A DNA stretch of 64,000 nucleotides from Teichococcus coralli (GTDB taxonomy: Bacteria > Pseudomonadota > Alphaproteobacteria > Acetobacterales > Acetobacteraceae), in the NCBI RefSeq assembly GCF_009829925.1, contig NZ_SNVJ01000016.1, positions 1 through 64,000 of the forward strand. The letters run 5' to 3'. Numbering within the stretch: the stretch's first letter is position 1; each line of letters begins with the position of its first letter. The notes beneath the pieces are model-generated. The model made no database searches. It was not told where the DNA came from and saw nothing but the letters and a program-made list of their open reading frames with translations. Of the stretch, positions 2,502-40,490 are shown in pieces. The translations under genes and the position numbers were made by a program.

Positions 2502-4274
2502 GTGAAAACAACCGCTACGCGTCTGCGGGTGCAGGACGAGGATTTCCTTGTCGCGGCGATGATCGAGCGCTGCCCGAAGACGATGATGATCCGGGAGCTG
2601 CTCAAGAACGCGCTGGAAGCTGCCGCGACCGCGCCGGAAGGAGCCCGCCGCGTCGCCTTCTCCGCCCTGGCTGTGGAAGGCGTGCCCAAGCTGGCCCTCT
2701 GGAACTCCGGGCAGGGGCTGACCGGCCCGGAGCTTTACCGGATGTGCGACATCGCCGCCTCCATCCGCAAGGAGAACGCGCTCGACCGCAACTTCGGCAT
2801 GGGCGCCAAGGTGGCGTCGCTGCCCTCGAACCAGGCTGGCATGCGCTACCGGTCGGCGCATGAGGGCAGCGTGCAGGAGGTGGTGATCGGCAAGTTCGGC
2901 GGCGTCTATGGCCGGCTGCTGCGTCCCGGCCCTGACGGGGCCCCCTCCGAGGTCCTCAGGGTGACGGAGGCGGCCCGCGCGGAAGGCCGCGACCCCGCCG
3001 CGGACTGGACGGAGGTGGTGCTGTTCGGCAACCGGCCTGACCAGAACACCGTCGCCGACCCTTATGGCGGCAATCCGCGCAGTTCCAGGCAGTGGCTGGT
3101 GGAAGCCGTCCGCAGCCGCTTCTTCCGCTTTCCCGAGGATGTCGAGATCGTCTTCCGCCAAGGCGTGGCGAACCTGAAGCAGGACCGCCGCCTGTTCAGC
3201 CTCGCCGCCCGGCTGGCGAGGTTGCAGCACTACGAGGCGGTGCGGCTGCCGGACGGCGCCACCATCCATTATGCCTACAACCCCACCCTGCTGGCAGCCC
3301 CCGCGGGCGGCGGCGCCGATCCCTGGGAAGCCGGCGAGAGCATGGGCGCGCTGGTCTATCAGGACGAGATCTACAGCATCCTGCGCGGCCCGGCCTGGCT
3401 GAGGGAGGCGCCGAGCTTCGGCATTCCCTTTCTGGCGCGGGCGATCACCGTGCTGGTCGAATTGCCGGGCGACTACCCCGTGCTGCCGGAAGCCTATCGC
3501 GAGTTCCTCCGTTACCGCAGCGAGCGGCAGGAGCAGGTGCGGGTGCACGACTACGCCGCCCTGGTGGCGCGCCTGCAGCCGCTTTGGCTGACCCGCCTGC
3601 TCGCCGAGGCCGTGCCGCGCGCCGACTATGTTGATGACATCATGGCCGAGATGCGGGAACTGCTGGAGCGGCTGGGTGTCGCGATGCGCCGCCCGAATCA
3701 GGCGCCGGACTTCCGGCCCAGGCCGCTGGCCCGCCCCGCGACGCCGGGCGAGAACCCACCGGGCGGGAAGCCACCAGGCGAGTACCCACCGGGCGGGAAC
3801 CCACCGGGCGAGTTGCCGCCCTTCAACCTCGAAACGCCCCCGGCCATCATCCTGTTGCGCGACCCGCCGGACATCGCCGAACGCGGCCTGGCGCACCGTG
3901 CCGCAGCCTATTATCCCGAGACGCACCAGCTGCATGTGAACCTGCAATACGCGGCGGTTGCCGAAGTCGCGCGGTCCCTTCTGGCCACGGCGCCGCAGGA
4001 GCTGGACATCGAGGGGGTGCAGGCGGCGGCCCGGCTCACGGCCGAGCGGGCGATGGTCAGCCGGGTGGCGCGTGCGCTGACCCATTCCCTTTCCAAGCGC
4101 GGCCGGCCGCGCGAGTGGGGCGAAGGCCATCTGCGCCATGCCTTTTCACCCGAGGCGCTGACCCTCGCGGCGGACGATACCCGTACCGGCTGGCACGAGA
4201 TCGAGGCGGACTTCGCCGCCGCCCTCAAGGCCCTGGCTCCGGCGCCGCCGCGCGCGGACGGAGCGCCGCTCTAG
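2502..4274 (+). CDS. Orphan GHKL-type (HSP90/MutL-like) ATP-binding protein
   Basis: The protein is 590 aa, starting at GTG 2502 with GGGGGAGG eight bases upstream. The Bergerat ATP fold is visible: N-box ELLKNALEA (residues 32-40, Mg-coordinating Asn36), a G1-like box WNSGQG (67-72, with Ser in place of the usual Asp), and a lid motif NFGMGAK (97-103). There is no HisKA dimerisation or phosphoacceptor His, so this is not a histidine kinase. It is nearer to stand-alone HSP90/MORC-like ATPases. Residues 416-440 form a Pro/Gly linker of five pentapeptides, separating the ATPase part from a roughly 150-residue C-terminal domain I do not recognise. The gene has no obvious partner: polysaccharide genes lie upstream and kdsA 268 bp downstream. 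The substitution of the G1 Asp may weaken or alter adenine recognition. Its function is unknown. Confidence 0.75.
3747..3821 (+). repeat. Five imperfect 15-bp repeats encoding a Pro/Gly linker
   Basis: Five in-frame 15-bp units encode [20 protein letters not shown] and GELPP. Units alternate E and G at the second position, so the true period may be 30 bp. The linker joins the ATPase region to the C-terminal domain of the GHKL-type protein. Confidence 0.85.
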
Positions 4275-32122: not shown

Positions 32123-32148
32123 GGCCATCCTTGCATGCGGGGATGGCC
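32123..32148 (+). promoter_or_regulatory. Perfect 8-bp inverted repeat upstream of torD-like gene
   Basis: GGCCATCC (32123-32130) and GGATGGCC (32141-32148) flank a ten-base spacer, ending 37 bp before the chaperone ATG. No T run follows. It may be an operator or an RNA hairpin in the 144-bp gap that splits the DUF genes from the structural fdh genes. Confidence 0.35.
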
Positions 32149-32185
32149 GACCTCTAGGAAACGCCAGAGACAGGCTTTGCTGCAA

Positions 32186-32806
32186 ATGAGCTCCACGGTC
32201 CCGCCGGCCGCTTCCGACGACCCGCAGGCCCTTGACCTGTTGGAGCTTGAGCGCGCGCGGCTGTTCGCGCTTCTGGGACGGTTGCTGGTGGCGGCGCCGG
32301 ATGGCGCGCTGCTGGCCAGCCTGCGCGGCCTGCGGGGCGAGCCCGGCACGATGCTGGGCGCCGCCTATGAGGGGCTGGCCGAGGCGGCACGGCAGGCCAC
32401 GCCCGCGCGGGCGGAGCGCGAGTTCCACGCGCTGTTCATCGGCGTCGGGCGCGGCGAGCTGCTGCCCTTCGCGTCCTACTACCTCACCGGCTTCCTGAAC
32501 GAACGGCCGCTGGCCGAGCTGCGTTCCACCCTGGGCAGGCTCGGGGTGGAGCGCGCGCCGGGGGTGAGCGAGCCGGAGGACCACCTCGGCTTCCTGTGCG
32601 AAACCATGGCGGGGCTGATCGCCGGGGTGTTTCCCGCAACGCCCGACGCCGCGGCCGAGTTCTTCACCCGGCATGTCCAGCCCTGGGCGATGCGCTGCTT
32701 CGCCGACCTGGAGGCGGCGGAGGCGGCCCGCTTCTACCGGGCCGTCGGCGCGCTGGGCCGCGCCGCGCTGGAAATTGAGATCGCCGCCGCGGAACTGCCG
32801 CGGTGA
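32186..32806 (+). CDS. TorD-family molybdoenzyme chaperone
   Basis: The 206-aa all-helical protein fits the TorD/DmsD family: LELERARLFALLGRLLVAAPD at the start, then AREFHALFIGVGRGELLPFASYYLTGFLNERPLAELR and EPEDHLGFLCETMAGLI. Such chaperones bind the Tat signal of a molybdoenzyme and hold it until the cofactor is inserted. Its natural client here is FdhA or the small Tat-signal protein just downstream. The ATG at 32186 is chosen because MSSTVPP matches a normal start. Confidence 0.87.
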   Translation: MSSTVPPAASDDPQALDLLELERARLFALLGRLLVAAPDGALLASLRGLRGEPGTMLGAAYEGLAEAARQATPARAEREFHALFIGVGRGELLPFASYYLTGFLNERPLAELRSTLGRLGVERAPGVSEPEDHLGFLCETMAGLIAGVFPATPDAAAEFFTRHVQPWAMRCFADLEAAEAARFYRAVGALGRAALEIEIAAAELPR

Positions 32807-33072: not shown

Positions 33073-35970
33073 ATGCTGATCAAGCGCAGCGAGGGGAAGG
33101 CCGCCCGGCAGCGGCTCGCCTCTGCCTACCAGGGGCTCTCCGGCGGGGGGCTGGACCGGCGCGGCTTCCTGCGCCAGGCCGGGCTTGGCGGTGCCGGGCT
33201 GGCGGCTCTCGGCGGCCTCGGGCTGAGCACGGCGCGCAAGGCCGAGGCCGGGCCCACCGACTTCGGCAAGCCGATCAGGCGCGTCAAGAACGTCTGCACG
33301 CATTGCTCGGTCGGCTGCACCGTCATCGCCGAGGTGCAGAACGGCGTCTGGGTCGGGCAGGAGCCGGCCTGGGAAAGCCCGATCAACCGCGGCACGCATT
33401 GCGCCAAGGGCGCCTCGGTGCGGGAGCTGGTGCATGGCGACCGCCGCCTGAAGTATCCGCTGAAGCTGGTCGACGGCGCGTGGAAGCGCCTCTCCTGGGA
33501 GCAGGCGATCGACGAGATCGGCGACAAGCTGATGGAGGTGCGCCGGAAGTCCGGACCCGATGCGGTGTTCTGGCTGGGCAGCGCCAAGTTCAGCAACGAG
33601 GGCGCCTACCTCATGCGCAAGTTCGCGGCCTTCTGGGGCACCAACTCGGTGGACCACCAGGCGCGCATCTGCCACTCCACCACCGTCGCCGGCGTCGCCA
33701 ATACCTGGGGGTATGGGGCGATGACCAACAGCTACAACGACATCCGCAACGCCCGCACCATGATCATCATGGGCGGCAACCCGGCGGAGGCGCACCCGAT
33801 CTCGATTCAGCACGTGCTCTCGGGCAAGGAGCTGAACCGCGCCAACCTGATCGTCATCGATCCGCGCTTCACCCGCACCGCCGCCCACGCCACCGAATAC
33901 GTCCGGCTGCGCCCGGGCACCGACATCCCGGTGATCTGGGGCATGCTCTGGCACATCTTCGAGAATGGCTGGGAGGACAAGGAGTTCATCGCCCAGCGGG
34001 TCTACGGCATGGACGACATCCGCAAGGAGGTCGCCAAGTGGAACCCGCAGGAGGTGGAGCGCGTCTCCGGCGTGCCGGGCGAGCAGCTCAAGAAGGTGGC
34101 GCAGATTTTCGCCACCCAGAAGCCCTCGACCCTGATCTGGTGCATGGGCGCGACGCAAAAGACGGTCGGCACCGCCAATGTCCGCGCCTATTCGATCCTG
34201 CTGCTGGCCACGGGCAATGTCGGCAAGCCCGGCACCGGCGCCAACATCTTCCGCGGCCACTGCAACGTGCAGGGCGCCACCGACTTCGGCCTCGATGTCA
34301 CCTCTCTGCCCGCCTATTACGGGCTGGACGAGACCGCCTGGCGCCACTGGTGCCGCGTCTGGGACGTGCCCTACGAGGACATGCTCGCGCGCTTCGCCAG
34401 CAAGGACATGATGCAGACGCCGGGCATCCCGACCACGCGCTGGTTCGATGCCGTGCTGCTGCCGAAGGAGCAGGTGGCGCAGCAGGACAACATCAAGGCC
34501 ATGGTGGTGGTCGGGCATGGCGGCAACACCGTCACCCGCATGCCGGACGCGGTGAAGGGCATGGAGGCGCTGGACCTGCTGGTCGTCGCCGACCCGCATC
34601 CCACCACCTTCGCCGCCCTCTCCAACCGCAAGAATGGCACCTATCTGCTGCCGATCTGCACGCAGTTCGAGGTGGACGGCAGCCGCACCGCCTCCAACCG
34701 CTCGATGCAGTGGGGCACCAAGGTCGTCGAGCCGATCTTCGAGAGCAAGAACGACTTCGAGCTGATGTACCTGCTGGCCCGCAAGCTCGGCTTCCACGAG
34801 CCGATGTTCAAGGGCATCGAGGTGAAGGACGGCACCAGGCCGACCGCGGAGGGAATCCTGCGGGAGATCAACCGCGGCTCGCTCTCGACGGGCTATTCCG
34901 GCCAGTCGCCTGAGCGGCTGAAGCTGCACATGGAGCGGCAGGCCGACTTCGATCTCGTCACCCTGCGCGGCCGCGAGGGCACGCCGGTGGCCGGCGAGTT
35001 CTACGGCCTGCCCTGGCCGTGCTGGGGCACGCCGGAGATGAAGCATCCCGGCACCCACATCCTCTACAACACCAACCTGCACGTGAAGCAGGGCGGTGGC
35101 ACCTTCCGCGCCCGCTGGGGCGTGGAGCGCAACGGACAGACACTGCTGGCCGAGGGCTCTTATTCCCAGGGCTCTGAGCTGACCGACGGCTATCCGGAAT
35201 TCACCGTGGCCGTGCTGAAGCGGCTCGGCTGGTACGACGAGCTGACCGAGGCGGAGAAGGCGACCATCGCCCGCGTCGGCGGGGAGAATGTGGACAAGGT
35301 CTCCTGGTCCACCGACCTGTCCTGCGGCATCATCCGCGTGGCGATGGAGCATGGCTGCCTGCCCTACGGCAACGGCAAGGCGCGCGCCAATGCCTGGAAC
35401 CTGCCGGACGCCATCCCGCAGCACCGCGAGCCGGTCTATACCCCGCGCACCGACCTGATCGCCGAGTACCCGACGATCGAGGACCGCCGCGCCTTCCGCC
35501 TGCCGCTCATCAACCGGTCCGTGCAGGCGCGCTCCCACACGGTGGCGCGCGACTTCCCGATCATCCTCACCTCCGGCCGCCTGGTCGAGTACGAGGGCGG
35601 CGGCGAGGAGACGCGCTCCAACCCCTGGCTGGCCGAGCTGCAGCAGGACATGTTCGTCGAGGTCAACACGCAGGACGCGGCCGACCGCGGCATCCGCGAG
35701 GGGCAGTGGGTCTGGGTTTCCGGGCCGGAGAACAACGCCCGCGTGCGGGTGAAAGCCCTGGTGACCGACCGCGTCGGCCGGGGTGTCGCCTTCATGCCCT
35801 TCCACTTCAGCGGCTGGTTCCAGGGCGAGGACCGCCGGAAATACTACCCGCCGGGCACCGACCCGATCGTGCTCGGCGAGAGCGCCAACACCGTGACGAC
35901 CTATGGTTACGACCCGGTGACGGCGATGCAGGAAACCAAGGTCACGCTCTGCCAGATCCGCGCGGCCTGA
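33073..35970 (+). CDS. Formate dehydrogenase catalytic (alpha) subunit, Cys type
   Basis: The 965-aa molybdopterin oxidoreductase oxidises formate to CO2 in the periplasm. A Tat signal (DRRGFLRQAGLGGAGLAALGG) precedes the [4Fe-4S] site CTHCSVGC. Mo ligand Cys200 lies in ARICHST, at the place where E. coli FdnG has selenocysteine; no in-frame TGA is present. Further blocks: GNPAEAHPISIQHV, GNVGKPGTGANIFRGHCNVQGATDFG, and the C-terminal cofactor-binding domain with FHFSGWF. Length matches the roughly 960-1000 residue FdhA of FDH-3 type loci. Its partners are the following beta and gamma subunits. Confidence 0.95.
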   Translation: MLIKRSEGKAARQRLASAYQGLSGGGLDRRGFLRQAGLGGAGLAALGGLGLSTARKAEAGPTDFGKPIRRVKNVCTHCSVGCTVIAEVQNGVWVGQEPAWESPINRGTHCAKGASVRELVHGDRRLKYPLKLVDGAWKRLSWEQAIDEIGDKLMEVRRKSGPDAVFWLGSAKFSNEGAYLMRKFAAFWGTNSVDHQARICHSTTVAGVANTWGYGAMTNSYNDIRNARTMIIMGGNPAEAHPISIQHVLSGKELNRANLIVIDPRFTRTAAHATEYVRLRPGTDIPVIWGMLWHIFENGWEDKEFIAQRVYGMDDIRKEVAKWNPQEVERVSGVPGEQLKKVAQIFATQKPSTLIWCMGATQKTVGTANVRAYSILLLATGNVGKPGTGANIFRGHCNVQGATDFGLDVTSLPAYYGLDETAWRHWCRVWDVPYEDMLARFASKDMMQTPGIPTTRWFDAVLLPKEQVAQQDNIKAMVVVGHGGNTVTRMPDAVKGMEALDLLVVADPHPTTFAALSNRKNGTYLLPICTQFEVDGSRTASNRSMQWGTKVVEPIFESKNDFELMYLLARKLGFHEPMFKGIEVKDGTRPTAEGILREINRGSLSTGYSGQSPERLKLHMERQADFDLVTLRGREGTPVAGEFYGLPWPCWGTPEMKHPGTHILYNTNLHVKQGGGTFRARWGVERNGQTLLAEGSYSQGSELTDGYPEFTVAVLKRLGWYDELTEAEKATIARVGGENVDKVSWSTDLSCGIIRVAMEHGCLPYGNGKARANAWNLPDAIPQHREPVYTPRTDLIAEYPTIEDRRAFRLPLINRSVQARSHTVARDFPIILTSGRLVEYEGGGEETRSNPWLAELQQDMFVEVNTQDAADRGIREGQWVWVSGPENNARVRVKALVTDRVGRGVAFMPFHFSGWFQGEDRRKYYPPGTDPIVLGESANTVTTYGYDPVTAMQETKVTLCQIRAA

Positions 35971-35985
35971 GGGGAGGAACAGCAG

Positions 35986-36582
35986 ATGGCCCGCATGAAG
36001 TTCCTCTGTGACAGCGACCGTTGCATCGAGTGCAACGCCTGCGTCACCGCCTGCAAGAACGAGCACGAGGTGCCCTGGGGCATCAACCGCCGCCGCGTCG
36101 TCACGCTGAACGACGGCAAGCCCGGCGAGCGCTCGATCTCCATGGCCTGCATGCACTGCTCCGACGCGCCCTGCGCGGCGGTCTGCCCGGTCTCGTGCTT
36201 CTACACGACGGAAGACGCCATCGTGCTGCACGACAAGGACCTGTGCATCGGCTGCGGCTACTGCTTCTACGCCTGCCCCTTCGGCGCGCCGCAATACCCG
36301 CGCGTCGGCAACTTCGGCGGCCGCGGCAAGATGGACAAGTGCACCTACTGCGCCGGTGGCCCGCAGCAGGACAACACCATGGCGGAATACGTGCAGTACG
36401 GCGCCAACCGGATCGCCGAGGGCAAGCTGCCGCTCTGCGCCGAGATGTGCTCGACCAAGGCGCTGCTCGCCGGCGATGGCGAGATCATCGCCTCCATCTA
36501 CAAGGAGCGGGTGCAGCGGCGCGGCTACGGCTCCGGCGCCTGGGGCTGGCGCACCGCCTATCGCGAGACGGTGGAGGTGTGA
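35986..36582 (+). CDS. Formate dehydrogenase iron-sulfur (beta) subunit
   Basis: The 198-aa FDH-3 type subunit carries four ferredoxin-like [4Fe-4S] groups: CIECNACVTACK, CMHCSDAPCAAVCP, CIGCGYCFYACP, and the split group CTYC with CAEMC. It carries electrons from FdhA to the membrane heme. There is no signal peptide or membrane anchor, so it is presumably co-exported with FdhA. It begins 15 bp after fdhA, and its stop overlaps the start of the gamma gene (TGATG). Confidence 0.95.
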   Translation: MARMKFLCDSDRCIECNACVTACKNEHEVPWGINRRRVVTLNDGKPGERSISMACMHCSDAPCAAVCPVSCFYTTEDAIVLHDKDLCIGCGYCFYACPFGAPQYPRVGNFGGRGKMDKCTYCAGGPQQDNTMAEYVQYGANRIAEGKLPLCAEMCSTKALLAGDGEIIASIYKERVQRRGYGSGAWGWRTAYRETVEV

Positions 36583-38663
36583 TGCCGGTGCTTCGCAACA
36601 ACCTCCTGGCGCTGGCCGCGGCAGTCCCGCTGCTGGTCGCCCCCGGGCTCGCCGCCGCCCAAGCGCCCGCAGGCCAGGCTCCCGCAGGCCAGGCTCCCGC
36701 AGGCCAGACTCCCGCAGGCCAGGCTCCCGCAGGCCAGGCTCCCGCAGGCCAGGCTCCCGCAGGCCAGGCTCCCGCAGGCCAGGCTCCCGCAGGCCAGGCT
36801 CCCGCAGGCCAGGCTCCCGCAGGCCAGGCTCCCGCAGGCCAGGCTCCCGCAGGCCAGGCTCCCGCAGGCCAGGCTCCCGCAGGCCAGGCTCCCGCAGGCC
36901 AGGCTCCCGCAGGCCAGGCTCCCGCAGGCCAGGCTCCCGCAGGCCAGGCTCCCGCAGGCCAGGCTCCCGCAGGCCAGGCTCCCGCAGGCCAGGCTCCCGC
37001 AGGCCAGGCTCCCGCAGGCCAGGCTCCCGCAGGCCAGGCTCCCGCAGGCCAGGCTCCCGCAGGCCAGGCTCCCGCAGGCCAGGCTCCCGCAGGCCAGGCT
37101 CCCGCAGGCCAGGCTCCCGCAGGCCAGGCTCCCGCAGGCCAGGCTCCCGCAGGCCAGGCTCCCGCAGGCCAGGCTCCCGCAGGCCAGGCTCCCGCAGGCC
37201 AGGCTCCCGCAGGCCAGGCTCCCGCAGGCCAGGCTCCCGCAGGCCAGGCTCCCGCAGGCCAGGCTCCCGCAGGCCAGGCTCCCGCAGGCCAGGCTCCCGC
37301 AGGCCAGGCTCCCGCAGGCCAGGCTCCCGCAGGCCAGGCTCCCACAGGCCAGGCTCCCACAGGCCAGGCTCCCACAGGCCAGGCTCCCACAGGCCAGGCT
37401 CCCGCTGCGGAAAGCCCGGCGCAGCCGCCCTCGGCGCAATCTCCCTCCGCCGAGCCGCAGGCGGGCGCCGCCGAGCGTGCCGCCAGCGACCCGCAGGTCA
37501 AGCAGGCGCTGCCGCCGGCCTCCGTGACGCAGCAGGAGCAGCAGAAGACCGACAGTGCCGGCCCGCCGCCCGGCGCGCCGGAAGTCCAGGGCCGCGTGCC
37601 GGAGGGCACCGCCGCCGGCACCAACGAGCAGAAGCAGGCGCCGACCACCACGGCGCCCGCCCAGCCCACCGGGACGCCTGCCCCGGCGATTCCCGCGCAG
37701 CCGCCGCAGCCCGTGCAGCCTGTCCCGGCGCCAGCGCCGATGGGCGACCGCGGCACGTTGCCGGCGGCGGAGCTGGAGTTGCAGAACGCGCTGAAGGGCG
37801 GCCGCATCGCGGGCCGCGTGTCCATCCCCGACGAGAAGGCCGCCACCCTGGTGCAGCCCGAGGGACGCGACTGGCGCGCCTTCCGCAACGACACGCTGCA
37901 CTGGGTCGGCGCCATCGCGGTGCTCGGCATGCTGGCGCTGCTGGCGCTGTTCTTCCTGGTGCGCGGGCGCATCCGCATCCACAACGGCTGGTCCGGCCGC
38001 ACCATGGTGCGCTTCAACTTCTTCGAGCGCATGAACCACTGGATGACGGCGAGCAGCTTCATCGTGCTGGCGCTCTCCGGGCTCAACCTGACCTTCGGCC
38101 GCTCGCTGATCCGCCCGCTGATCGGGCCGGAAGCCTTCACCGCCCTGGCCGACTGGGGCAAGATCGCGCACAACTTCCTGGCCTTCCCCTTCACGGTGGG
38201 CCTGCTGGTGATGCTGCTGATTTGGGCGAGGGACAACCTGCCCAACAAGCTGGACTGGGTCTGGCTGAAGAACGGCGGCGGCTTCATCGGCGGGGCGCAT
38301 CCGCAGGCCGGGCGCTTCAACGCCGGGCAGAAGGGCATCTTCTGGATCACCGTGCTCGGCGGCGGCGTGGTGGCGGTCTCCGGCTTCCTGCTGATGTTCC
38401 CCTTCTTCCTGCTCGACATCGCCGGGCAGCAATGGGGCCACATGGTGCATGGCACCCTGTCCATGCTGCTGATCGCGGTCATGCTGGCGCATATCTATAT
38501 CGGCTCGCTGGGGATGGAGGGCGGCTTCAGCGCCATGGGCAGCGGCCGGGTGGACTACAACTGGGCGCGCGAGCACCACGGCCTGTGGGTGGACGACGAA
38601 CTGAAGCGCGCGCATGAGGCGGTGCAGCCGGAGGCCGCCGCGCGCCCCGCCGGGGCAGACTGA
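36582..38663 (+). CDS. Formate dehydrogenase cytochrome b556 (gamma) subunit with giant APAGQ repeat
   Basis: The 693-aa protein begins with a signal peptide (LALAAAVPLLVAPGLAAAQ). Residues 28-272 are 49 tandem pentapeptides (APAGQ, with one TPAGQ and four APTGQ). A Pro/Ala/Gln-rich linker follows to about residue 420. Then comes the normal gamma part: a helix (IAVLGMLALLALFFLV), the FFERMNHWMTASSFIVLALSG heme-ligand helix, WGKIAHNFLAF, and HMVHGTLSMLLIAVMLAHIYIGSLG, i.e. four helices with bis-His heme. A plain gamma subunit is around 300-400 aa, so about 300 residues are added at the periplasmic side. The linker may tether or extend the complex in the periplasm. Confidence 0.93.
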   Translation: MPVLRNNLLALAAAVPLLVAPGLAAAQAPAGQAPAGQAPAGQTPAGQAPAGQAPAGQAPAGQAPAGQAPAGQAPAGQAPAGQAPAGQAPAGQAPAGQAPAGQAPAGQAPAGQAPAGQAPAGQAPAGQAPAGQAPAGQAPAGQAPAGQAPAGQAPAGQAPAGQAPAGQAPAGQAPAGQAPAGQAPAGQAPAGQAPAGQAPAGQAPAGQAPAGQAPAGQAPAGQAPAGQAPAGQAPAGQAPAGQAPAGQAPAGQAPTGQAPTGQAPTGQAPTGQAPAAESPAQPPSAQSPSAEPQAGAAERAASDPQVKQALPPASVTQQEQQKTDSAGPPPGAPEVQGRVPEGTAAGTNEQKQAPTTTAPAQPTGTPAPAIPAQPPQPVQPVPAPAPMGDRGTLPAAELELQNALKGGRIAGRVSIPDEKAATLVQPEGRDWRAFRNDTLHWVGAIAVLGMLALLALFFLVRGRIRIHNGWSGRTMVRFNFFERMNHWMTASSFIVLALSGLNLTFGRSLIRPLIGPEAFTALADWGKIAHNFLAFPFTVGLLVMLLIWARDNLPNKLDWVWLKNGGGFIGGAHPQAGRFNAGQKGIFWITVLGGGVVAVSGFLLMFPFFLLDIAGQQWGHMVHGTLSMLLIAVMLAHIYIGSLGMEGGFSAMGSGRVDYNWAREHHGLWVDDELKRAHEAVQPEAAARPAGAD
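36663..37397 (+). repeat. Minisatellite of 49 x 15-bp repeats inside the gamma subunit gene
   Basis: Unit GCTCCCGCAGGCCAG repeats in frame 49 times without an indel. Unit 1 starts GCG instead of GCT, unit 4 begins ACT (Thr), and the last four (from 37338) have ACA for GCA. All other copies appear identical in every base, which points to recent slippage or recombination. The repeat has no stop in any frame, so long false ORFs run through it on both strands. Confidence 0.97.
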
Positions 38664-38751: not shown

Positions 38752-39252
38752 ATGCGCCTGATCGGACTGGCCGGCTGGAGCGGCGCCGGCAAGACCACCC
38801 TCCTCGCCAAGCTCATCCCCTGCCTGACCGGGCGCGGCATCCGCGTCTCCACCATCAAGCACGCCCACCACCGCTTCGACGTGGACCAGCCGGGCAAGGA
38901 CAGCCACGTCCACCGTCAGGCCGGCGCGGAGCAGGTTCTGGTCGCCTCGTCGCTGCGCTGGGCGCTGATCACCGAGTTGCGGGGCGCCCCGGAGCCCCGG
39001 CTGGAGGAACTGCTCGGCCATCTCTCCCCGGTGGACCTTGTGCTGGTGGAGGGCTTCAAGCGCGATGCCCATCCCAAGATCGAGGTGTTCCGCGTCGCCA
39101 ACGAGAAGCCCTGGCTGCACCCGGAGGACCCGGCCATCCGCGCCGTCGCCAGCGACGCGCCGCCGCCGGGCGGGCTGCCGCGGGCCGGGCTGGACGATGT
39201 GGAGGCCGTGGCCGACCTCGCGCTGCGGTATGCCGTGCCATGGCGCAGCTGA
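38752..39252 (+). CDS. mobB: Molybdopterin-guanine dinucleotide biosynthesis protein MobB
   Basis: The 166-aa GTP-binding adaptor supports MobA in making bis-MGD, the cofactor of formate dehydrogenase. The P-loop is GLAGWSGAGKTTLLAKL at the start, followed by STIKHAHHRFDVDQPGKDSHVHRQAGA and DLVLVEGFKRDAHPKIEVFR. All are standard MobB blocks. The gene lies 88 bp after the fdh operon and its 3' end overlaps moeA by 13 bp. Confidence 0.93.
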   Translation: MRLIGLAGWSGAGKTTLLAKLIPCLTGRGIRVSTIKHAHHRFDVDQPGKDSHVHRQAGAEQVLVASSLRWALITELRGAPEPRLEELLGHLSPVDLVLVEGFKRDAHPKIEVFRVANEKPWLHPEDPAIRAVASDAPPPGGLPRAGLDDVEAVADLALRYAVPWRS

Positions 39253-40490
39253 GCGACGACTGCTTCGCCTTCGGCGGCACGCTGCTCTCGGTGGAGGCCG
39301 CGGCGGCGCTGATCACCGGGCGCGTGCCGCCGCTGCCGGGGCAGGAGCTGGCGCCGCTGGCCGCCGCGCGCGGCCGCGTGCTGGCGCAGGACCTGCATGC
39401 GCCGCATCCCCTGCCGCCCTTCTTCAACAGCGCGGTGGACGGCTACGCCTTCCGCCACGCGGACCTGCCGCCCGGCGGCGAGAGTTGTCTGGCGCTGGCC
39501 GGACGGCTGGCGGCGGGGCAGGCGGCCGGAGCGCCGCTGGCGCCGGGCACCGCCTGCCGCATCCTGACCGGGGCACCGATGCCGCCTGGCGCCGACACGG
39601 TGATGATGCAGGAGGACATCCGGCTGGAGGGCAGCGTGCTGCATCTGCCCGCCGGCCTGAAGCGCGGCGCCAATTGCCGCCCCGCCGGGGAGGACGTGCC
39701 GCAGGGTGCCCTTGCGCTGGCCGCCGGCACCCGGCTGAACCCGGCCCATGTCGGGCTGGCGGCGGCGCTGGGGCAGCCGGCGCTGGCGGTGCGGCGGCGC
39801 CCGCGCATCGGCGTGTTCAGCACCGGCGACGAGCTGGCGCCGCCCGGCGGCAGGCTCGGCCCGGCGCAAACCTTTGACAGCAATCGCTTCTCGCTGCTTG
39901 CCCTGCTGGCCGGGCTGCCCGTGGAGCCGGTGGATCTCGGCATCCTTCCTGACCGCGCCGAGGCCACCGCCGCCGCGCTACGCGAGGCCGCCACGGCGCA
40001 CGACATGCTGCTGACCTCCGGCGGTGTCAGCGCCGGGGAGGAAGACCATGTGCGCGCCGCCATCGAGGGCCAGGGGCGCCTGGTCTTCTGGCGCCTGGCG
40101 CTGAAGCCGGGGCGGCCGGCGGCAATGGGCATTGTCCGGGGCACGCCGGTGCTGGGCCTGCCGGGAAACCCGGTGGCCGCCATCGTCACCTTCCTGCACC
40201 TGGCGCGACCGCTGGCGCTGCAGCTTTGCGGCGCCGCGCCGGAGCCGCTGCCGCGCTTCGTGGCGGAAGCCGCCTTCGCGCATCGCAAGAAGGCGGGCCG
40301 GCGGGAATATCTGCGCGTCACGCTGACGGCCGGGGGGGGCCTGCCGCTGGCGCGGAAGGACCCGCGGGAAGGTGCGGGGCTGCTCTCTTCCCTGACCGGC
40401 AGCGATGCCTTCGCCGAACTGCCGGAGGATTGCACCGCGATTGCGCCGGGCGAGAGGGTGGCGGTGCTGCCCTTCACGGCCATCTTCTGA
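39240..40490 (+). CDS. moeA: Molybdopterin molybdenumtransferase
   Basis: The 416-aa enzyme inserts molybdenum into adenylated molybdopterin. Visible are the N-terminal region with FNSAVDGYAF, GRLAAGQAAGAPL, CRILTGAPMPPGADTVMMQED, the MogA-like domain with FSTGDELAPPG and DSNR, LLTSGGVSAGEEDHV and PVLGLPGNPVAA. All catalytic-domain blocks are intact. It overlaps mobB by 13 bp. Together they supply bis-MGD to the FDH upstream. Confidence 0.95.
   Translation: MAQLSDDCFAFGGTLLSVEAAAALITGRVPPLPGQELAPLAAARGRVLAQDLHAPHPLPPFFNSAVDGYAFRHADLPPGGESCLALAGRLAAGQAAGAPLAPGTACRILTGAPMPPGADTVMMQEDIRLEGSVLHLPAGLKRGANCRPAGEDVPQGALALAAGTRLNPAHVGLAAALGQPALAVRRRPRIGVFSTGDELAPPGGRLGPAQTFDSNRFSLLALLAGLPVEPVDLGILPDRAEATAAALREAATAHDMLLTSGGVSAGEEDHVRAAIEGQGRLVFWRLALKPGRPAAMGIVRGTPVLGLPGNPVAAIVTFLHLARPLALQLCGAAPEPLPRFVAEAAFAHRKKAGRREYLRVTLTAGGGLPLARKDPREGAGLLSSLTGSDAFAELPEDCTAIAPGERVAVLPFTAIF

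Follow-up and report, generated by a model that had tools for sequence, protein, structure and literature searches.

The closest counterparts of the gene described here are the FDH3-type gamma subunits (TIGR01583) of formate dehydrogenase (FDH) in Acetobacteraceae and their neighbours, which it resembles in the signal peptide, the linker, the GRVSIPD motif, an extra membrane helix and a core like that of E. coli FdnI. It differs from them in an array of 49 pentapeptides. Among the papers listed by literature searches, judged by titles and the opening lines of abstracts, none dealt with a repeat array in an FDH gamma subunit.

Two kinds of described repeat proteins are comparable in part. Excerpts of PMC9239064 and PMC5542605 describe AAEAP repeats at the N-terminus of the Neisseria proteins Lip (H.8) and Laz; in the nitrite reductase AniA, imperfect repeats resembling AAEAP lie close to the N-terminus, and AASAP occurs four times close to the C-terminus. 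Like the gamma array, these are Ala/Pro-rich pentapeptide tandem repeats at the terminus of an envelope protein. As described in the same excerpts, however, Lip, Laz and AniA are lipoproteins in which serines carry glycans or are implicated as their attachment sites, whereas the present array consists of near-perfect copies and has neither Cys nor Ser. In Periscope proteins, as outlined in the part of PMC8201768 that was available, protein length is likewise set by the number of tandem repeats, which are folded domains projecting a ligand-binding domain. We rejected the gamma subunit as a Periscope protein, since its units are five residues long, follow a signal peptide and have nothing N-terminal to project. 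On the excerpts of these papers, neither the Neisseria repeat proteins nor the Periscope proteins are a family for the gamma subunit. We consider it rather probable that the array is a minisatellite that expanded recently and in frame, and was tolerated, within a disordered tail of variable length.

The formate dehydrogenase operon

The window analysed here comprises 64,000 nucleotides of Teichococcus coralli, and the features of its FDH locus are collected in Table 1. With alpha and FDH3 beta genes alongside, the gamma gene lies in an FDH operon; its score exceeds the curated cut-off of TIGR01583, and its naming as an FDH gamma subunit in an earlier sequence-only reading is thereby confirmed. 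The alpha subunit has a twin-arginine leader, DRRGFLRQ, as read directly. The frame and start of the gamma gene are secure, because its ATG overlaps the beta stop codon (TGATG) and the leader ahead of the array is conserved in the sister species, Roseomonas sp. E05.

Table 1. Features of the formate dehydrogenase locus, in positions of the window
Feature	Position	Strand	Basis
TorD/DmsD/NarJ-type chaperone gene	32135..32806	+	Pfam Nitrate_red_del, E 1.1e-28; NCBIfam TorD/DmsD models below cut-offs
FDH alpha (molybdopterin, catalytic) subunit	33073..35970	+	TIGR01591, E 1.1e-138, below curated cut-off
FDH3 beta (4Fe-4S) subunit, 198 aa	35986..36582	+	NF038355, 336.8 bits, cut-off 240
FDH gamma (cytochrome b) subunit, 693 aa	36582..38663	+	TIGR01583, 144.8 bits, cut-off 115.85; PF01292
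Putative type-I signal peptide, 26 aa, ...GLAAA-Q	36582..36659	+	read by eye
Minisatellite, 49 x 15 bp, (A/T)P(A/T)GQ x49	36663..37397	+	TRF and unit-by-unit reading
Older non-repeated Pro/Ala/Gln-rich linker	37398..37811	+	common to relatives, length variable
Juxtamembrane motif GRVSIPD...LVQPEGRDWR and extra N-terminal membrane helix	37812..37964	+	conserved; outside E. coli FdnI match
FdnI-like four-helix cytochrome b core	37989..38636	+	1kqf_C, Z 19.9; hmmsearch 8e-28
mobB, molybdenum cofactor	38752..39252	+	profile matches
moeA, molybdenum cofactor	39240..40490	+	profile matches

The repeat array

The units of the array are contiguous, uninterrupted and in frame, and they encode 245 residues; the sequence-only reading had given the coordinates, the 15-bp unit, the copy number and the residue count exactly. 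With near-identical tandem units of a length divisible by three inside an ORF, the array is an in-frame coding minisatellite. Forty-three of the 49 units are identical (GCTCCCGCAGGCCAG), the exceptions being copy 1 (GCGCCCGCAGGCCAG), copy 4 (ACTCCCGCAGGCCAG) and the four units of copies 46-49 (GCTCCCACAGGCCAG). Only copy 1 differs synonymously. Copies 4 and 46-49 carry Ala-to-Thr changes, so that the earlier claim of identity at synonymous sites in all but the first, fourth and last four copies stands for the first and falls for the others. Thr is present in only 5 of the 49 units, Ser is absent from the array, and Cys is absent from both leader and array.

TRF scores the array at 1448 over 36646-37405 (50.6 copies, 98% match), compared with 105 for the next best of the 11 TRF rows in the window, and chance is therefore excluded. 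Searched with up to three mismatches, the 5.02 Mb draft genome contains a two-unit 30-mer 48 times, always within the array. The codons GCT and GCA, which the sequence-only reading had singled out, are indeed rare: among 243 Ala codons counted in five genes nearby, they make up 1.2% and 1.6%. Their presence in the array, however, does not carry the significance attached to it: the copying of one seed unit explains them without any argument for function, and they would simply be the codons of the founding copy. A DNA hairpin was rejected as the driver of expansion, since six folded units show no special structure: on each strand, most shuffled sequences fold more stably (z +1.73 and +2.05).

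The number 49 is an assembly estimate, and there is some possibility, though clearly the smaller one, that the copy number of a real array is an artefact, which would be compatible with a recent expansion. The genome is a draft of 76 contigs, the run of 41 consecutive identical units (615 bp) is too long for an ordinary short read to span, and the gamma gene of a congener, AT-5844, is broken between contigs within its Pro-rich linker. However, the array lies inside a contig of 111,863 bases without Ns and is bounded by distinct variant units at both ends, and assembly from short reads would be likelier to contract a perfect array than to extend it.

Anatomy of the gamma subunit

From the N-terminus, the gamma protein is composed of the leader, a single Gln, the array, a linker of about 138 residues, the GRVSIPD motif, a membrane helix and the cytochrome core. 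The array begins one residue past the putative AAA-Q cleavage site. Of 77 gamma proteins (76 relatives and the window's own), 71 have, somewhere in residues 1-60, a match to the permissive pattern [AVSGLI]xA with Q directly after it; the six misses are L041, which has lost its N-terminus at a contig end, and L081, L084, L085, L086 and L091. Cleavage of the leader is favoured because such a site is so widely kept, and the array would then form the free N-terminus of the mature subunit. As the array begins at the signal-peptidase site, no part of the mature enzyme would lie N-terminal to it. The idea of the sequence-only reading, a tether that keeps the catalytic dimer off the membrane, was therefore rejected: it would need a retained leader, and alpha and beta are separate polypeptides.

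By the positive-inside rule, the positive charges of RGRIRI, which follows the first helix, suggest that the C-terminal end of this helix is cytoplasmic and its N-terminal end periplasmic. Together with the leader, this charge pattern argues for the periplasmic side that had been assigned to the array.

The portion of gamma after the array was modelled with AlphaFold2, with model residues numbered from there. The mean pLDDT is 75.4; residues 1-83 fall below 50, in keeping with a linker that is for the most part disordered, and confident helices start at about residue 154. E. coli FdnI (1kqf_C) aligns with the core at model residues 198-413 (rmsd 2.4, 205 aligned residues), giving gamma the four-helix FdnI-like fold. 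The first membrane helix (model residues 154-189) lies outside this match. The array itself is presumably disordered.

Comparison with relatives

The closest relative is Roseomonas sp. E05, with a gamma subunit 92% identical over 299 C-terminal residues. It has APATGGQ at the array site and no array: AAAQAPATGGQAQPPSAQ in E05 stands against AAAQ, then the 49 units, then APAAESPAQPPSAQ in the window. A query with the C-terminal part of gamma matched 16 of 17 genus genomes, without a match in the one that is 71% complete. Clear orthologues, at 58-92% identity, are found in 11 genus genomes besides the window's, and four others have only paralogue-like matches at 35-37%.

A scan of the relatives' contigs gave 77 loci, and 76 of these yielded a gamma protein (L078 was dropped, having no usable start). 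As the sequence-only reading had proposed, their gamma subunits were compared with that of the window. No array is present in the N-terminal segments of the 76 named relatives, although L041, cut off by its contig end, cannot show one either way; L095 also starts near a contig end. TRF returned 19 rows in 13 of these segments, with a best score of 73 and at most 3.3 copies. When the 77 loci were read whole, no row of at least 100 fell in the gamma N-terminal region, and the four rows that reached 100 are all downstream of it.

Between leader and IPD motif lie 384 residues in the window and 23-164 residues in the 69 measurable relatives (70 lengths in all; L088, with a cleavage motif and no IPD motif, was excluded). 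This interval is 23-42 residues in 54 of the relatives and 91-164 in the other 15, and in the longer gammas the linker is rich in Pro, Ala and Gln.

Of 289 genomes searched across the class, 40 had a match, the window's own included. No tandem array was found in 42 class-wide stretches from other genomes (29 and 13 from two retrievals; best TRF score 76), although for the 18 loci without the linker motif only the tandem-repeat scan counts. Among plasmids, the gamma protein matched 232 records, all below 60% identity. Judging from these sequences, the array is lineage-specific among the relatives examined, although its absence in draft relatives is weaker than it appears, as arrays of this kind may be broken or collapsed when assembled from short reads.

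In Acetobacteraceae bacterium AT-5844, the two parts of the split gamma gene lie on separate contigs (L011:1 and L175). We rejected a hidden array there as the less likely case: the contig ends nearly abut within a stretch that is intact in P. wenyumeiae, and nothing long need be missing.

The linker lengths also bear on whether the array has been selected as a spacer that crowds or sterically shields FDH in the periplasm, stretches towards the peptidoglycan or, if the leader stays uncleaved, forms a long periplasmic loop between two membrane anchors. We regard this as unlikely. A coil of 245 residues could extend far into the periplasm, and the 15 relatives with long Pro/Ala/Gln linkers include Pseudoroseomonas, Siccirubricoccus and Rhodovarius. 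However, the 54 others have just their short stretch ahead of the conserved motif, and the array sits at a free end; the widely kept cleavage site argues against the loop form in particular.

Other arrays in the genus and family

A 65-residue piece of the array matched 5 of 16 genus genomes, namely the window's own and four others at 31-56% identity; in the own genome, the piece matched the array itself and, at 39%, a single place on contig C3. With the whole array as query and up to 18 candidates scored per genome, 13 of 150 family genomes matched, the own genome included, and the 12 others are at 28-49% identity among the matches listed. No second APAGQ array was seen in the 16 genus or 150 family genomes among the matches listed, and those from other genomes that were read are other low-complexity repeats.

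Congeners carry 15-bp arrays in apparently coding genes unrelated to FDH gamma: 14.7 copies at L109:1473-1693 (PPPPS in the longest plus-strand frame, by eye), 9.3 copies at L104:1552-1690 (QAPYS/QAPSS, frame by eye) and 8.7 copies at L106:1478-1606 (a CheA-like frame, named by eye). Family genomes hold further arrays, such as one of 19 copies in L117, and the best other family array listed has a TRF score of 872 (15.1 copies of a 45-bp unit, 85% match). The 15-bp coding minisatellites of other Acetobacteraceae resemble the gamma array in their period, their open frame and an often Pro/Ala-rich product; they differ in gene, unit and fewer or more diverged copies. Since congeners and family genomes carry such arrays, pentapeptide-sized expansion is, as far as these sequences tell, a recurrent event in these GC-rich genomes. 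The window's array is the longest and cleanest found in a search biased to array-like sequences. A second 15-bp repeat lies in the window at 3744-3812 (4.6 copies, consensus CCGGGCGAGAACCCA).

Age of the expansion

Between the window and the sister species, the gamma gene differs at 24 of 99 fourfold sites in the linker and at 35 of 138 in the membrane domain (0.24-0.25). The corresponding values are 26 of 91 for mobB (0.29) and 72 of 270 for moeA (0.27). We rejected a mutation hotspot at gamma, because its divergence resembles that of mobB and moeA and the values of alpha and beta are simply lower. Compared with 24-29% for gamma, mobB and moeA, the fourfold differences from the sister are 65 of 521 (12.5%) in alpha and 10 of 96 (10.4%) in beta (33073-36582 against L026).

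Units 5-45 form the run of 41 consecutive identical units, in which 164 fourfold sites are unchanged. For an array dating back to the split, with units not homogenised, the probability of no change at d = 0.25 would be about 1e-9. The age of the array would thus be at most about 15% of that of the split from the sister (95%), unless the units have been homogenised by exchange, which could make an old array look young. Against the sister divergence of about 25% in gamma, the identity of these units bears out the recent expansion that the sequence-only reading had proposed. Copies 46-49 share one variant, implying duplication of whole units. Copy 1 is probably the seed, as it keeps the GCG codon found in the sister.

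Proposed origin and tolerance of the array

We suppose that the ancestral gamma had a Pro/Ala/Gln tail at its mature N-terminus, disordered, variable in length and containing an APAGQ-like word. In the window's lineage, repeated duplication of one copy of the present unit would have led to 49 in tandem; replication slippage or unequal exchange is the presumed cause. The expansion would be tolerated because steps of 15 bp keep the frame, as the sequence-only reading had correctly noted, and because the encoded peptide carries no charge, is presumably disordered and sits at a free end. With the core, the extra helix and the operon unchanged, the enzyme should work as in its relatives, and the expansion is most likely neutral. 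It counts against a tolerated expansion that 49 near-perfect copies go far beyond the other arrays (TRF 1448 against 872) and that selection for length would fit the same observations.

The locus offers a clear and datable case of low-complexity growth within a respiratory gene, with the array-free state seen in the sister species. The array could find use in strain typing or as a model for how minisatellites behave in GC-rich bacteria; it points to no new mechanism.

Frequent change of copy number might alternatively tune the amount or stability of FDH, making the array a contingency locus. The near-perfect tandem units of VNTRs are expected to be unstable, which would suit such a role. However, a 15-bp unit cannot shift the frame, and the array lies inside the ORF past the start codon, so that we find this reading improbable. 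A phase-variable switch acting through frameshift or promoter was rejected on the same observations, and with it the phase-variation-like locus of the sequence-only reading, since gain or loss of 15 bp alters only length. Slightly more doubtful still is the idea that populations use a disordered periplasmic tail of about 384 residues, tunable by copy number, to adjust the spacing or crowding of FDH.

Least probable of all is a glycosylated or surface-active region like that of Neisseria Lip, Laz and AniA: in the excerpts of PMC9239064 and PMC5542605, as here, envelope proteins including a respiratory enzyme bear Ala/Pro pentapeptides close to their processed N-terminus, but the gamma array has no Ser and few Thr-containing units, and a lipoprotein of the H.8/Lip-Laz type was rejected because the AAA-Q site has no lipobox Cys.

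The extra membrane helix

A conserved GR(V/I)SIPD...QPEGR.WR-like motif, with an extra N-terminal membrane helix after it, occurs in the FDH3-type gammas of this group (36582-38663, L026-L102). The FDH3 beta subunit aligns with positions 92-201 of the 283-position FDH-beta model, and the C-terminal region is absent. In E. coli FdnH, the C-terminal region holds the membrane anchor. The extra helix of gamma may replace this anchor.
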